Below are positions 37,609 through 46,143 of a stretch of 46,143 bases of DNA, piece after piece. Position 1 is the stretch's first letter; the number at the start of each line of letters is the position of its first letter. Source of the DNA: Methyloversatilis discipulorum (GTDB taxonomy: Bacteria > Pseudomonadota > Gammaproteobacteria > Burkholderiales > Rhodocyclaceae); assembly GCF_018780585.1 (NCBI RefSeq), contig NZ_JADMJL010000065.1, positions 1 to 46,143 of the forward strand, given 5' to 3'. A model generated the notes under the pieces. The model saw nothing but the letters and a program-made list of their open reading frames with translations, was not told where the DNA came from and did no database searches. The position numbers and the translations under genes are program-made.

Positions 37609-38307
37609 TCACGTCGAGCGCCTTGCGCACCACGCATGGACGAAACCTGCCTGGTAGAACTGGACAGGACGGCTGAAGCCACCGCGTCCGATAATGGCCT
37701 CGATCTCTGCCGGCGGGAGGATGGCCACATCCTTCTCCCATGCCTTGTGTGTTCTCTCGATCGCGTCCGCGGGTACGTTGGCTGCGTGAAGCATGCTCAC
37801 CCAGGCTTTCAGCAAGGCCTTGTATGCCGGTGAGCCGACTGTCGACGACAGATCTGCGCTGGCCAGAATGCCCTCAGGGCGCAGCCTGGCAGCGATGGAC
37901 TGGAAAAAGCGGGCACGCTCGTCCTTAGCAAGAAAGAACTGCGAAACCATGAAGCAAGTCGCTGCGTCGTGGGGTTCAATCGCGGGAAGCGATTCCAGAT
38001 AGCCTTCGTGAAACGTGCAGCGCGAGGCGAACGACTCCTTCTCCGCTCTCTGTCGACAGACATCGAGCATCGCTCCGGAAGGCTCCACTGCCGTGAAGCG
38101 CCAATGCGGGAATTTTCTGGCCAGATAGGAAAGCTCCGCACCGGCTCCCAGGCCGACGCAGAGTATCCGAGCGTTCTCAGGCAGCTCGGAAAATATCCAT
38201 TCGAGCTGGAAATGAAGGCCTTCGTGAACGGGCGCAAGTTTCTGCTGCTGCTGTTCATAGCCGGAAGCCTGCTGATCAAACACGGCTCTCAGTTCGTCTT
38301 GGTTCAT
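37609..38307 (-). CDS. class I SAM-dependent methyltransferase
   Basis: A 232-residue methyltransferase. Motif I is ILCVGLGAGAELSYLA (about 49-64), the acidic SAM-ribose residue is E in FTAVEPSGAMLDVC, and post-motif regions DAATCFMVSQFFLA and LRPEGILASADLSS follow. The N terminus VFDQQASGYEQQQQKLAPVH matches small-molecule methyltransferases of the UbiE/tellurite type. The substrate is unknown. The ATG at 38307 is preceded by GAGG. It has lower GC than the hydrogenase block and may be the distal end of the integron-associated region, but no attC was recognised next to it. Confidence 0.82.
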   Translation of the reverse strand: MNQDELRAVFDQQASGYEQQQQKLAPVHEGLHFQLEWIFSELPENARILCVGLGAGAELSYLARKFPHWRFTAVEPSGAMLDVCRQRAEKESFASRCTFHEGYLESLPAIEPHDAATCFMVSQFFLAKDERARFFQSIAARLRPEGILASADLSSTVGSPAYKALLKAWVSMLHAANVPADAIERTHKAWEKDVAILPPAEIEAIIGRGGFSRPVQFYQAGFVHAWCARRST

Positions 38308-39182: not shown

Positions 39183-39234
39183 GCCCAACGCCTTCTTGAG
39201 CAGCGAGGCAGTCCGCTGGAACACATCGTTGGGC
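39183..39234 (-). other. integron attC site (52 bp)
   Basis: GCCCAAC at 39183-39189 and GTTGGGC at 39228-39234 are perfect outer cores (RYYYAAC and GTTRRRY) and are mutually complementary. The interior is imperfectly self-complementary. It ends the cassette of the secreted protein at 39236-39793, whose stop lies at the site edge, and starts the next cassette. Confidence 0.85.
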
Positions 39235-39809: not shown

Positions 39810-39868
39810 GCCGAACGTCGCAGTTGTGCGGACGCCGGAGCGCGGTCCGCTCGAACGCAGTGTTGGAC
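39810..39868 (-). other. integron attC site (59 bp)
   Basis: GCCGAAC (39810-39816, one mismatch to RYYYAAC) and GTTGGAC (39862-39868, exact GTTRRRY) bound a 59-nt imperfect palindrome containing CGGAGCGCGGTCCGC. The length equals that of the classic 59-base element. Confidence 0.75.
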
Positions 39869-40136: not shown

Positions 40137-40194
40137 GTTCAACGCCTGCGCTCAGCGGCGGGCGAAGCCCGTTCGCTGGAGCGCTTTGTTAGGC
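40137..40194 (-). other. integron attC site (58 bp)
   Basis: GTTCAAC (40137-40143) and GTTAGGC (40188-40194) are exact outer cores. The interior has the inverted GCGGCGGGCG / CGAAGCCCG and CAGCG / CGCTG blocks typical of a folded attC. The GTTAGGC core is complementary to the GCCTAAC that opens the same cassette at 41555, the expected relation within one cassette. Confidence 0.9.
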
Positions 40195-41554: not shown

Positions 41555-41620
41555 GCCTAACGTGGAAGCGAGCGGCGCGCGCGGCTTTTCGCGGCGGTCC
41601 GATCGACGGCAGTGTTATGT
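41555..41620 (-). other. integron attC site (66 bp)
   Basis: GCCTAAC (41555-41561) and GTTATGT (41614-41620) bound a 66-nt imperfect palindrome. It aligns closely with the site at 42413-42478 (shared TAACGTGGAAG, GCGCGG, GGTCCG, TCGACGG). Such homogeneous attC sites are typical of chromosomal integrons. The stop codon of the adjacent gene is inside the core. Confidence 0.9.
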
Positions 41621-41941: not shown

Positions 41942-41951
41942 GCATAACGTG

Positions 41952-42404
41952 CTAGCTCACGGGCGCCGCCGGCTTTCCGGAAGGCATCCCTTGGAGCGGC
42001 GGGGTAGCCGCCGATGCCTGCCATATGAGCAGCTTGGCGGCGAGGAAGGACGAGACAAATGAGAGCAAGGCGAGAACGAGAAGTCGAAAGTCTTGCTCTA
42101 CGCCAAGCTGCCCCAGATAACCAGCAAGATAAGTGAGTCCGCCAAAAACCAAGGTATAGGCGGAACTGAGGAAGAATGGCTTCCACCATGGCAAGGAAGC
42201 TGAGAGTTGCTTAGCGCCCAGAGAAAAGCCAACCGCAACAACGAAGGCAGCGACGGTGATGATCCAGAGGACAACCTGATATGACGGCCCTCGACCCAAT
42301 GCACGTTCGTACTGGTCGAACCCGTAGACGGAAACAGCCATTGCCCCGGCGGCCCAGCCTACGAAGCCGAAAGTGAAGGTGGCGATTGTCTTGAGGCGGC
42401 TCAT
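41952..42404 (-). CDS. small integral membrane protein (integron cassette)
   Basis: A 150-residue protein with four predicted membrane helices (FGFVGWAAGAMAVSVYGF, VVLWIITVAAFVVAVGFSL, FFLSSAYTLVFGGLTYLAG, LLVLALLSFVSSFLAAKLLI) and a short proline-rich tail. No family is recognised. The ATG at 42404 is 9 nt from the attC core at 42413. The attC that should follow its 3' end was not found in normal form (only GCATAAC at 41943), so it may have lost its site. Confidence 0.75.
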   Translation of the reverse strand: MSRLKTIATFTFGFVGWAAGAMAVSVYGFDQYERALGRGPSYQVVLWIITVAAFVVAVGFSLGAKQLSASLPWWKPFFLSSAYTLVFGGLTYLAGYLGQLGVEQDFRLLVLALLSFVSSFLAAKLLIWQASAATPPLQGMPSGKPAAPVS

Positions 42405-42412
42405 ACGTAGGC

Positions 42413-42478
42413 GGCTAACGTGGAAGTGATCGGCCTGCGCGGTTTTGCGCGTAGGTCCGGTCGACGGAAGGGTTAGGC
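42413..42478 (-). other. integron attC site (66 bp)
   Basis: GGCTAAC (42413-42419) and GTTAGGC (42472-42478) are exact cores with a self-complementary centre (CTGCGCGG-TTTT-GCGCG). The GTTAGGC core pairs with GCCTAAC at 42858, the start of the same cassette. Confidence 0.9.
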
Positions 42479-42857: not shown

Positions 42858-42864
42858 GCCTAAC
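42858..42864 (-). other. attC outer core interrupted by IS insertion
   Basis: GCCTAAC is the outer core of an attC whose other half continues at 44662 after the inserted element. The AAC (42862-42864) is repeated at 44662-44664, apparently a 3-bp target duplication. Confidence 0.75.
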
Positions 42865-44661
42865 GACGCTGTAGAAAAACCCCATTCGGGGGCAAGCGGC
42901 TGCTGCCGGCCTTGGCCGGATTGAAGTCGTTCATCCTCATTTCAGCCTTCCGATCTTCGCTTCATCGTCGTCCCCTGACGTCAGCCCCGGCCGCTGCCCG
43001 GCGCGCTCGAAATGGCGTCGGCTTCTCCCGCCAGCTTACCTAATTCGCGTATCCATGGTGCCCGAGCTTTTCGATGTTGTGCACCATGCAGTACAGCTTC
43101 CACTGCCCATCCACCTTTGTGCGCCCGCGCAGCGTGAATCGGGCGAGCCGTTTGTTGTGCCGAAGGTTGCCGAACACCGGTTCGACGGTGGCGAAGCGCG
43201 CGGCGATCATCCGTTTGCCCTCAATTGAATCGATACGCCGCTTCATCCGCTCGGTGTGTGACTCAGTTGAGTCGCGCTTGCCGCGGAAGAAGGCGACCTG
43301 TCGCACCTTCGTCGTCTCCGGCGTGCGCAGGCAGCGGCTGCGCTGATCGCACGGCACGCAGTCGCGGGCCGCACCGGTGTACTTGGTGGCGGCGTATCCG
43401 TTGATCGTGCATTCGCCGCCGTCGCGATACAGCCGTTTGCCCGCAGGGCAGATGCAGTGGCTGCGGTCCTGCGCTTCGGTGAAGTCGATGTTGGCGTAGG
43501 GCCGGGTCTTGCCTGCAGCGCGTGCCCGTTTCGCCTTCTCGCTCTTGTCCCACAGCGCATCGGGCTTGGCCTTGTGCCGGGCCTGATCGGCGTACCGTGG
43601 GTCGCGTTGCCGGTAGCCGTTGTCGCACACCCAGGCGGGGATGTTCCGGCTATCCAGTCCAGCGAGGTTCTTCTCGGAGTGGTAGCCCGCGTCGGCGCAG
43701 ATCGCCGTGTGCTGTTCTCGCTGAGTGAGGATTGCGTCGACCACGGGCAACAGCAGTTCCTGTTCCGACCCGGTGCCGTGCGCCTGGGCATCGACCACGA
43801 TCTGGTGCGCGGCATCGACGGCGGCCACGCCCGTGTAGCCCTGGATCACGCCCTTGGCGGTGGCCATCTTGGCCGAGTCATTGTCGGTGCGGTTGCTCAG
43901 GCGCACGGCGCCTTTGGCGCCGCGCCGCTCGTCCGGATTGCGCGCGAGCCAGTCGCGGATCTTTGCTGCTTCGTGGCTCAAGCGTTCGCGGGTGCGCTGC
44001 GCGCGGGCGGCCTCGTCGTCGCAGCTGGCGGCATCGCGCGCCTTCTGCTCACCGATCATGCGCTGCACGGCCGCTTCCATCTTCACCGCCTCGCGCTCGA
44101 AGTCGGCACGTGTGCCGCTCTTCACTTTCGATGCGTTCGACGGCAGCTTCACGCCGTCGATGGCGAAGAGCTCGCGCCCGATCAGCCCCTGGCGGTCGCA
44201 CACCAGCAGGACCTCGGTGAAGAGCATCTGCGCTTCATCGCCCAGACTGCTGACGAAGTGCGCGACGGTGGTGAAGTGCGGAGCGCTGTCACCGGACACG
44301 GCCATGAACAGCACGTTGTGGCGGCACGCGCTGGCGATAGCGCGCGAACTGATCAGCCCGCGCGAGTAACCGAGCAGCACGATCTTGAGCAGCACCGCAG
44401 GATCGAAGGCCGGGGCACCGCCCGCGTCATTGGCGTAACGGGCGCGCAAGGCCGACAGATTGAGCTCGGTGTCGACCAGGTGGCAGAGCGCGAACTCGAA
44501 GGTGCCGGGCAGCACCTGCTGCGCGAAGTCGACGGGGATGAGCTTTAGGCCGTAGTCGGCTGTCTTGAATCGCGGCATCGCAGGGCTCCGCAGAGGCGAT
44601 GACCGATCATAACAACGGCATGTGAACGGCGGCGGGGTGTGAGGGGTTTTTCTACAGCCTC
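42865..44661 (-). mobile_element. IS1182-like insertion sequence inserted in an attC core
   Basis: A complete element of about 1797 bp. Its terminal inverted repeats match at 18 of 19 positions (GACGCTGTAGAAAAACCCC at the left, GAGGCTGTAGAAAAACCCC as the complement of the right end). It contains one transposase gene on the minus strand and about 175 nt of non-coding left end. The flanking AAC on both sides suggests a 3-bp duplication. The same left end starts again at 46094 in an equivalent attC position, so at least two copies exist in this array. Confidence 0.85.
43040..44578 (-). CDS. IS1182-family transposase
   Basis: A 512-residue DDE transposase. The N-terminal domain (PGTFEFALCHLVDTELNLSA, FDPAVLLKIVLLGYSRGLIS) is the DUF772-type helical domain. 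Catalytic residues can be placed at D in LFAIDGVKLPSNAS, D in AICADAGYHSEKN and E in EPVFGNLRHNKRLARFTLRG. A cysteine-rich insert lies between the last two (HCICPAGKRLY, CVPCDQRSRCL), as in other IS1182 transposases. The reading frame is intact, so the element may still be mobile. The ATG at 44578 leaves about 80 nt to the right terminal repeat. Confidence 0.92.
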   Translation of the reverse strand: MPRFKTADYGLKLIPVDFAQQVLPGTFEFALCHLVDTELNLSALRARYANDAGGAPAFDPAVLLKIVLLGYSRGLISSRAIASACRHNVLFMAVSGDSAPHFTTVAHFVSSLGDEAQMLFTEVLLVCDRQGLIGRELFAIDGVKLPSNASKVKSGTRADFEREAVKMEAAVQRMIGEQKARDAASCDDEAARAQRTRERLSHEAAKIRDWLARNPDERRGAKGAVRLSNRTDNDSAKMATAKGVIQGYTGVAAVDAAHQIVVDAQAHGTGSEQELLLPVVDAILTQREQHTAICADAGYHSEKNLAGLDSRNIPAWVCDNGYRQRDPRYADQARHKAKPDALWDKSEKAKRARAAGKTRPYANIDFTEAQDRSHCICPAGKRLYRDGGECTINGYAATKYTGAARDCVPCDQRSRCLRTPETTKVRQVAFFRGKRDSTESHTERMKRRIDSIEGKRMIAARFATVEPVFGNLRHNKRLARFTLRGRTKVDGQWKLYCMVHNIEKLGHHGYAN

Positions 44662-44729
44662 AACGTTTGACATGAGGGGGGCATGAAGGTCGTAGGCCGG
44701 AGTGCGTCCCCTCGATGGAAGAGTTGGGC
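44662..44729 (-). other. remainder of the attC split by the IS element
   Basis: Beginning with the duplicated AAC at 44662, this stretch continues GTTTGACATGAGGGGGGC and ends in the exact core GTTGGGC (44723-44729). Joined to GCCTAAC at 42858-42864 it makes an attC of about 72 nt. GTTGGGC pairs with the ATTGGGC start (complement of 45746-45752) of the cassette gene at 44734-45711. Confidence 0.75.
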
Positions 44730-44733
44730 GTCA

Positions 44734-45711
44734 TCATGCGAGCTGTGCGCCAGAGAGGGCTTGAGATTCACGGTCATGCAGATCGACTACCGACTTGAGG
44801 GATTCATGGACGACACCAGAACCCATTGACTCAATGTAGCGACAAGCGGCAAAGGCCGCGGCCTTTGCCTCGTAGCCGGCAATCCACTGATTGCGAACTG
44901 CGACTGACTCAGATCGGACTGGCCAAACTCCAGGGCGCGGCCGCATGTGTGCGGAGATACCGATGCGCCATGGTTTAGCAGTGAGCCTTGCACGAAAGCA
45001 GTTTTGATTTGTACACATGCGGGCGTAGACGGGGTCGACAGACACCTTGGTGAAGAAGCGTTGAACTTCTTCGGCTGTGGCTTCAAACGTTCGATGCGTT
45101 GCCAGCACGCGATACCCTGCTGGAGTTCGGTATAGACGTAAGTTCCAGGTGGGATTCTCTGCAATGAAGCTGGCGATCCGTTCGCGTGCAATGCGCTCCG
45201 ATCCTCCGCCCGCCAGTACAGCCAAGCGGGCGAACAGATTTGCTATCGGTGCGGCGGCGACGAGAGAGGCAAACAACAGACCAAAAGTTGTGCCCCAGCT
45301 TCGCAGAGAAATTCCAATTGTCACTGATGCGACAGATAAGGCAACAAAGGTGAAAAGCGCTGGCTTGGCGCTCCGTTCGGGCGTGAAGTCTATGTCCGCG
45401 AACAGAGCACTCGGAGAGTTGAGGCAATGCGCTCCGTAAGCGTTGCGAGTGATGACGACTTCTCCATGACGGGCCAGGACCTCTTCTCGGATTGGGATGC
45501 CTGCCGCGCCGTTGTATGCAACTTTGCGCTCTCTCCGCTCTAGCTGTTCTCCTGCGACGATGCGTTGGAGAGCTTCGTCAGCACGTGCCTCAGCGATGAG
45601 TCGTGCGTCAGCTTGACTGGACATGGACCAGCCGTACCTGCGAACGGTGACTTGCTTGGCGGAGGTTTTGTACTGCCTTCGGGCTTCGGCCCAATACTCG
45701 GGAACGATCAT
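44734..45711 (-). CDS. uncharacterised membrane protein (integron cassette)
   Basis: A 325-residue protein of unknown family with two adjacent hydrophobic segments in the middle (ALFTFVALSVASVTIGISL and TFGLLFASLVAAAPIANLFA, about residues 115-160), flanked by soluble parts. The N-terminal 100 residues include ADARLIAEARADEALQRIVA. The C-terminal part has RLYRTPAGYRVLATHRTFEA and a two-cysteine stretch ARMCTNQNCFRARLTAKPWR. It may be a sensor or transport accessory protein, but nothing is certain. The ATG at 45711 lies 35 nt from the cassette edge. Confidence 0.72.
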   Translation of the reverse strand: MIVPEYWAEARRQYKTSAKQVTVRRYGWSMSSQADARLIAEARADEALQRIVAGEQLERRERKVAYNGAAGIPIREEVLARHGEVVITRNAYGAHCLNSPSALFADIDFTPERSAKPALFTFVALSVASVTIGISLRSWGTTFGLLFASLVAAAPIANLFARLAVLAGGGSERIARERIASFIAENPTWNLRLYRTPAGYRVLATHRTFEATAEEVQRFFTKVSVDPVYARMCTNQNCFRARLTAKPWRIGISAHMRPRPGVWPVRSESVAVRNQWIAGYEAKAAAFAACRYIESMGSGVVHESLKSVVDLHDRESQALSGAQLA

Positions 45712-45745
45712 CTTTTTATATGCCGGAGGAGGTGCAGATTATGAC

Positions 45746-45833
45746 GCCCAATGTGAAGGTGAGGGGCGACGGGCCGCCCCCCCCCGGCACGGCCTCCCAG
45801 CGGCGAAGCCGCGCCTCGACCGGCAGGTTAGAG
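45746..45833 (-). other. integron attC site, diverged (88 bp)
   Basis: GCCCAAT (45746-45752) and GTTAGAG (45827-45833) each differ by one base from the outer-core consensus. The interior is GC-rich and foldable and includes a run of nine C residues (45777-45785). GTTAGAGG is complementary to CCTCTAAC at 46086-46093, the opening core of the same cassette. Confidence 0.7.
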
Positions 45834-45834
45834 G

Positions 45835-46080
45835 TCATTGGCAGCACTCCGGGTTAAACACAACAAAGTGCGGTGAGCCCTCGAACGAATGGTCACTGTC
45901 CGAAAGATGTTCGTGCTCCCAAGCCTTGCGACGGGTCTCCATTCCGTTCGCACAAGACACAAGAAACTTGGCAATACGACGCAGTTCGTCGGAAGTTGCG
46001 ACGAGGGTGATTTCTGCGAGCTCGGCGGGAACAATGTCCTCACTGGCGCGACCTTCGTCAGCGTAACCGTGGATTTTCAC
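45835..46080 (-). CDS. small protein resembling Imm32-type immunity proteins (integron cassette)
   Basis: An 81-residue protein beginning MKIHGYADEGRASEDIVPAE. The pattern ELAEITLVATSDELRRIAKF followed by WEHEHLSDSD and PHFVVFNP is like proteins annotated as immunity protein 32. I hold this at moderate confidence because it is from memory of the pattern only. The start is GTG at 46080 with AGAGG upstream, lying 10 nt inside the cassette. No partner toxin is present in the window, but immunity-only cassettes are plausible in integrons. Confidence 0.7.
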   Translation of the reverse strand: MKIHGYADEGRASEDIVPAELAEITLVATSDELRRIAKFLVSCANGMETRRKAWEHEHLSDSDHSFEGSPHFVVFNPECCQ

Positions 46081-46093
46081 CGTGACCTCTAAC

Positions 46094-46143
46094 GACGCTG
46101 TAGAAAAACCCCATTCCGGGGCAAGCGGTTGCTGCCGGCCTTT
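46094..46143 (-). mobile_element. left end of a second copy of the IS1182-like element (cut by window end)
   Basis: From 46094 the sequence repeats the left end at 42865 (GACGCTGTAGAAAAACCCC, then a nearly identical stretch ending TGCTGCCGGCC) with only a few substitutions. It follows CCTCTAAC (46086-46093), the outer core of the next attC, at exactly the same point and in the same orientation as the first copy. Only 50 nt are visible. The orientation is given by analogy with the complete copy. Confidence 0.85.

Follow-up and report, generated by a model that had tools for sequence, protein, structure and literature searches.

The window, a 46,143-nt stretch of the Methyloversatilis discipulorum genome taken as a whole, ends in an array of integron attC sites that holds two copies of an insertion sequence (IS) related to the IS1182 family. 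We find that this IS, through its DDE-type transposase, very probably inserts at the GTT of the attC R' core and duplicates that GTT, its target being a short core combined with features of the attC body. The position of the IS, the duplication, the orientation, the preference for attC, the breadth of hosts and the occurrence in genomes without an integrase gene (intI) match all emerge from the sequences compared. The preliminary description had reported that both left ends (42865 and 46094) come after TAAC of attC cores in one orientation and that AAC stands on both sides of the complete copy, and the sequence agrees on both points (AAC at 42862-42864 and 44662-44664). Its proposal of site-specific attC insertion by an IS1182-type DDE transposase is likewise upheld, at 28 of 31 junctions in the genus and in most members of the clade, the point of insertion in these 28 being the GTT of R' and never R''. 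GTT is the triplet of attC that is cut by the integron integrase IntI (G^TT). To our knowledge, attC seeking is known only for an RNA-guided group of IS (IS1111) and a group of introns (IIC). No report of an IS1182-type or DDE element in attC was found in the literature searched, a search that left subscription papers and ISfinder outside its scope, and prior notice is possible. A DDE element that seeks attC and occurs across several genera of beta- and gammaproteobacteria would add a third solution to attC recognition, one with different chemistry, and would help in studying how a transposase reads a DNA site that is folded or asymmetric. The finding is also relevant to the ways in which integron arrays acquire repeats and become mobile, and to whether seemingly interrupted sites remain active.

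Throughout, C numbers denote contigs of the M. discipulorum genome (G000), and L and G numbers the loci and genomes compared. The insertions in the window consist of the following features:

42858-42864, minus strand: original R' core GTTAGGC of the IS-joined attC, now past the IS, where it starts the next cassette
42862-42864: left copy of the duplicated target AAC, which is GTT on the cassette strand
42865-44661, minus strand: complete IS, 1,797 bp, its transposase gene (tnp) reading the same way as the cassette genes
42868-42883, no strand: left terminal inverted repeat, with outer bases GAC at 42865-42867
43040-44578, minus strand: transposase, 512 amino acids, with domains DUF772 and DDE_Tnp_1_6
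44643-44658, no strand: right terminal inverted repeat, with outer bases CTC at 44659-44661
44658-44729, minus strand: IS-joined attC body, with R'' GCCCAAC at 44723-44729 and ending in R' GTTGAGG, the last four bases of which belong to the IS
44662-44664: right copy of the duplicated target AAC, which is GTT on the cassette strand
46087-46093, minus strand: R' core GTTAGAG adjoining the second copy
46094-46143, minus strand: second IS copy, left end only, the contig ending inside it

On the cassette strand, the order at the complete copy is the attC body (R'' GCCCAAC, arms, CAAAC), GTT, the IS (tnp-start end leading), GTTAGGC and the following gene; the general arrangement is attC body-GTT, IS, GTTRRRY, with the IS inside R' and the GTT doubled. 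The complete copy has the ends GAC-GCTGTAGAAAAACCCC ... GGGGTTTTTCTACAGC-CTC, and its terminal inverted repeats match at 16 of 16 positions, as is expected in the IS1182 family. The second left end comes after CTCTAAC and agrees with the first copy at 47 of 50 bases, and both left ends stand directly after YTAAC of an attC R' core. Origin of the second copy by duplication of a larger segment was considered and rejected, because the 60-bp flanks share 22 of 60 positions.

Regular-expression finders of attC were too strict or too weak (returning nothing or few sites), and for a stem score 21 of 64 genus rows (the 64 include 31 GTT right ends) and 15 of 63 rows from relatives attained the 99% null level; these methods being inadequate, we used covariance models built from IS-free attCs only, R1 from 19 sites (including 40137-40194) and R2 from 29. 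Rows were excluded before counting if the flank was shorter than 120 nt, if the ends were too decayed for the pattern or if they repeated the same 40-nt flank. Genome-wide, R1 called at least 189 attCs in the 13 Methyloversatilis genomes at E<=0.001 (150 candidates per genome scored). The IS-joined attC at 44658-44729 scored 48.3 bits with R1 (E 3.6e-9) and 45.1 bits with R2 (E 1.2e-7). The same array has a weak candidate at 39183-39234 (E 0.03, R1) and these IS-free attCs, called by R1 and also by R2:

39810-39868, minus strand: IS-free attC
40137-40194, minus strand: IS-free attC
41555-41620, minus strand: IS-free attC
41942-42009, minus strand: IS-free attC
42413-42478, minus strand: IS-free attC

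The genus survey covered 13 Methyloversatilis genomes, 10 of which have the IS right end. It gave 31 distinct right-end junctions with the core GTT and 32 left ends with AAC; a further right-type end, L118, reads TCC and stands outside the 31. An attC lies exactly at 28 of the 31 junctions by R2 (E<0.01) and at 27 by R1, while L138 is weak by both models. All 28 model-supported junctions have R' at the IS and none has R'' (0/28), a concentration at a single attC position that characterises an attC-targeting element in functional terms. At the left ends R' reads GTTAG in 26 of 29 cases (the 32 left ends minus L114, L118 and L121) compared with 27 of 57 IS-free attCs (Fisher p 1.3e-4), which points to a sequence preference as well.

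This preference raises the alternative that the transposase reads a short sequence alone (e.g. CGTTAG), attCs being rich in it and other insertions being lost by selection. In keeping with it, GTTAG is rare outside the arrays (a single occurrence across 38 kb of the window when both strands are counted), occupied sites favour GTTAG and copies outside attC likewise lie at GTT. The frequencies, however, speak otherwise. CTAACG occurs 112 times in the M. discipulorum genome, and among 100 listed occurrences 7 are R' of its own attCs and 4 are IS left ends (17 of its 22 attCs, IS-free or IS-joined, entered this comparison), which makes 11 of 100 listed sites attC R' or IS-occupied; among the genus junctions, attC R' accounts for 28 of 31. 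On the assumption that CTAACG is present at all 22 attCs and 4 IS sites (a share of 23%), 28 of 31 at attC has a P of ~3e-15, and even with an assumed share of one half P is ~2e-6; these binomials treat junctions as independent and apply the share of one genome to the genus, and the attC count is a lower bound, so 23% is no strict upper bound. Moreover, none of the 28 insertions is at R'', although R'' offers a heptamer of this type on the opposite strand. Recognition of a short sequence alone is hence improbable in our estimate. In the reading that we prefer, the target would consist of a CGTT core (CGTTAG being favoured within the genus) together with features that lie 5' of this core in the attC body, and the body, presumably read as a folded strand, would let the transposase distinguish R' from R'' and lift the use of attC far above that of other GTTAG sites.

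An identical 3-bp sequence flanks the element on either side in 50 of 52 end pairings, GTT/GTT in 47 of them and AAC/AAC in 3; two of the 52, both from L113, use a single left end between them and lack a readable tnp. In the AAC/AAC trio, L148 has tnp on the other strand, L125 is a 762-bp element without readable tnp and L029 is the only true reversal. The orientation is thereby near-constant: the tnp-start end faces the attC body and GTT runs along the assigned tnp direction in the 47, so that tnp reads with the cassette genes. Copies outside attC with a readable tnp keep the same orientation relative to GTT, and the bias is therefore not due only to selection for tnp expression. No orthologous empty allele of a whole locus was found among the loci compared. 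At the level of single sites, the attC body at L029 has a 79-bp match of 100% identity in L106, to an IS-free attC that ends in GTTGAAC, and the body at L022 has an 84-bp match of 97.6% identity to an IS-free attC whose downstream bases are the same.

A constant orientation at the triplet cut by IntI could also arise if IntI itself placed the element, an excised IS circle with a junction GTT being recombined at G^TT of attC to give GTT on both sides. Orientation tracks the GTT strand in nearly all copies, as this would require, and intI is present in most genus genomes (9 of 13 above the cut-off, 11 of 13 at E<=1e-40). M. discipulorum has its own intI without stops at C32:5802-6746 (477 bits), with an IS end at C32:1-56 in the adjoining array, while in G001 intI is in two pieces. 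Against IntI stands G002, a single contig with 43 attCs, where three copies identical over 1797 bp lie in three different attCs and no intI match was found at E<=1e-8; G007 (3 attCs, one IS copy in attC) gave none at this threshold either. A GTT without a recognisable attC is occupied in L026, L114, L121, L158 and L161, and L029 is reversed relative to GTT. In addition, the attC models match nothing within the IS ends beyond the site shared with the upstream attC; an IntI-borne cassette would end in its own attC, whereas here the attC lies upstream and, but for four bases, outside the IS. We consider placement by IntI very unlikely. The copies in G002 and G007 together with the GTT insertions outside attC favour the transposase, which most likely does the insertion and may act alone. 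As attC arrays without an integrase match, G002 and G007 are also worth recording in their own right.

Beyond the genus, relatives at E<=1e-60 were present in 18 of 369 genomes of the class, the M. discipulorum genome counted, and 38 loci from named genomes were examined; rows for relatives came from 16 of these loci and from L140-L162, the remaining loci being genus copies or fragments without a usable right end. The 33 relative junctions comprise 31 with GTT, one with ATT and one with CGT. An attC was called by R1 or R2 (E<0.01) at 13 of them (L021, L022, L023, L025, L027, L029, L038, L040, L044, L045, L140, L149, L157), weakly at 7 (E 0.05-1.2; L033, L043, L142, L144, L146, L148, L153) and by eye only, from R'' and the stem, at 7 more (L034, L035, L145, L147, L152, L156, L162). 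Among the named hosts of attC cases are Zoogloea, Aromatoleum, Nitrotoga and Gallionella, as well as Halomonas and Pseudomonas cuatrocienegasensis, for which the cases are weak or by eye only. In the plasmid collection three records matched at <60% identity, and one of them, L169, is bounded by GTT at either end and has a flank that by eye resembles attC; the phage search gave no match.

Several observations weigh against targeting of attC by the transposase. Copies in unrelated sequence, a possibility raised in the preliminary description, do occur: most copies are at attC, and 2 of 31 genus junctions (L114 and L121, at GTT without recognisable attC) and 6 of 33 relative junctions (L026, L032, the second end of L142, L158, L159, L161) lie outside recognisable attC. 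The second end of L142 abuts another IS copy, and the other five are at GTT. L114 is one of three identical copies, of which the other two are in attCs, which argues that attC is preferred and not required. A matching duplication is lacking at L118 and L021, and 14 of the 27 attC calls outside the genus depend on weak scores or reading by eye. When six non-attC sites were folded (L121 being absent from the comparison), five did not surpass the mean of random GTT sites and L026 was 0.9 sd below it, which speaks against a hairpin requirement. In the M. discipulorum genome a decayed copy (G000:C27 38477-38876, 75% identity), missed by the end motif, has its end after CTAGC and not CTAAC. Further, selection against in-gene insertions could add to the attC bias, and intI may have been lost after insertion in G002 and G007, so these genomes are no proof of the transposase acting by itself.

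The assignment of the transposase follows from its domains, DUF772 (56.9 bits) and DDE_Tnp_1_6 (78 bits) both exceeding the Pfam cut-offs as in the IS1182 family. Against the NCBIfam model NF033551 (IS1182) it reaches 238.4 bits, under the cut-off of 270, while clade members in G084 (301.3 bits) and G048 (288.9 bits) exceed it, and for this reason we call the element IS1182-like. Residues D141, D296 and E466 are invariant across 15 aligned transposases and, from the alignment, are read as the putative DDE triad; AlphaFold2 on 15 sequences gave a mean pLDDT (predicted local distance difference test score) of 58.5, too low for fold comparison. In a tree of 34 proteins all 30 GTT-type transposases fall on one side of a 100/99 branch, with four other IS1182 proteins opposite, though the deeper order is unsure owing to long branches, and one attC label (L143) is unsupported, its upstream flank being off the contig. 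Relatives down to ~40% transposase identity mostly insert in the same way and form one clade. The two ends differ in their outer bases within the genus (GAGG vs GACG), but in most of the distant members both read GAGG. By eye, two of the four other proteins (L164 and L166) have CTAG at the element ends, L163 has an inverted repeat at the target and L168 has neither. L164, L166 and L163 belong to the same family, with outer bases GAGGCTGT (L164) and GAGCCTGT (L166), but are 20-25% identical, use other targets and stand on a separate branch.

The use of attC as a target is shared with the IS1111-attC group (ISKpn4, ISPst6, ISPa25 and ISPa21; passages of PMC11616780). Elements of this group are described in parts of PMC11187229 as having a DEDD transposase and a seekRNA and as adding no target bases; the window IS, in contrast, has a DUF772/DDE_Tnp_1_6 protein, a 3-bp duplication and no sign of a guide RNA. 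A noncoding stretch does follow tnp, 123-193 nt long in 26 copies (a 27th, the reversed L029, was measured on the wrong strand), and in principle it could encode a guide RNA leading the transposase to attC in the manner of seekRNA. This is highly implausible: the stretch diverges widely while the target is constant, the 27 sequences match ACGTTAGGC or its complement at 7 of 9 positions at best, and 3 of the 27 fold with z below -3 and the others do not, so that the comparison of sequences and folds lends no support to a guide RNA. Within the IS1182 family, target choice of IS1272 and TnSha1 is tied to hairpin-forming DNA, and IS1272 removes the stem-loop wholly or partly, with no duplication and no primary sequence consensus, as stated in sections of PMC5678879 and PMC4923244. 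The window IS shares the transposase family with them but keeps the attC body and duplicates GTT (the same 3 bp in 50 of 52 pairings), and hence does not replace a stem-loop. Group IIC-attC introns enter integrons, as well as clusters of attC sites lacking an integron integrase (CALINs), at an attC or beside it, read against the cassettes and have the consensus TTGT/T, as far as passages of PMC7923331 and PMC8876359 describe them; they have attC targeting in common with the window IS and differ from it in being introns, in their consensus and in their opposite reading direction. A 2025 survey of Xanthomonas integrons states that IS and transposases are a frequent observation within cassettes and at attC, the attC part of its text citing IS1111 work (passages of PMC12444791).

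As for the fate of the invaded attC, the block of cassette exchange anticipated in the preliminary description is not demonstrated, since the IS end rebuilds most of R' and may leave the attC functional. With GAGG of the IS end placed after the retained GTT, the cut R' becomes GTTGAGG, which is close to the consensus GTTRRRY, and the site, which still has R'' and its two L arms, is nearly complete. Models R1 and R2 still score IS-joined sites over their full length, while the predicted single-strand fold of the site at 44658-44729 is only slightly better than shuffles (z -1.03). The interrupted attC may still be usable, and we infer that the rebuilt site recombines. The next cassette begins with the IS, and if IntI uses the GTTGAGG site the IS would travel with that cassette. 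Taken further, the DDE transposase may read folded attC as IntI does, with the GAGG end keeping attC recombinogenic and the IS being a cassette passenger moved by both IntI and the transposase; we put this forward as a tentative possibility that is rather doubtful as a whole. Two cases fit a cassette passenger: L142 (G254, ~3171, minus strand) is a head-to-tail IS pair joined by one GTT, and in G012 the loci L119 and L120 share an IS-headed cassette behind different attCs, L119 being a contig of 4,065 bp that starts within IS sequence, holds a shortened copy and may be misassembled.

Elsewhere in the M. discipulorum genome, the 15-base end motif (<=1 mismatch) had 8 matches, 3 of them in the window; the others are left ends after TAAC on C37 and C19 and right ends before AACG on C26, C30 and C32. 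Contigs C66, C37, C30 and C32 all end within copies of the window IS. The decayed C27 copy, its core altered, lies ~350 bp from an attC at 38069-38126. CTAACG is scarce in this genome, with 112 occurrences against 2,060 for the same hexamer read backwards.

Within the IS itself we recorded one further feature:

42879-42893, minus strand: hairpin resembling a terminator, to which the left inverted repeat contributes

Such terminator-like sites are no more frequent than in shuffles. A short frame after tnp (within 42865-43039 in the window, and also in genus copies and some others) ends in ...GVFLQRR at the IS edge, where the target GTTAG supplies a TAG stop; it could be a chance product of the inverted repeat or a small gene. 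Finally, L137 contains at 1642-1740 a 99-bp element in an attC; flanked by GTT at either side and retaining the two inverted ends (GAG...CTC), this element resembles a non-autonomous form of the miniature inverted-repeat transposable element (MITE) kind.

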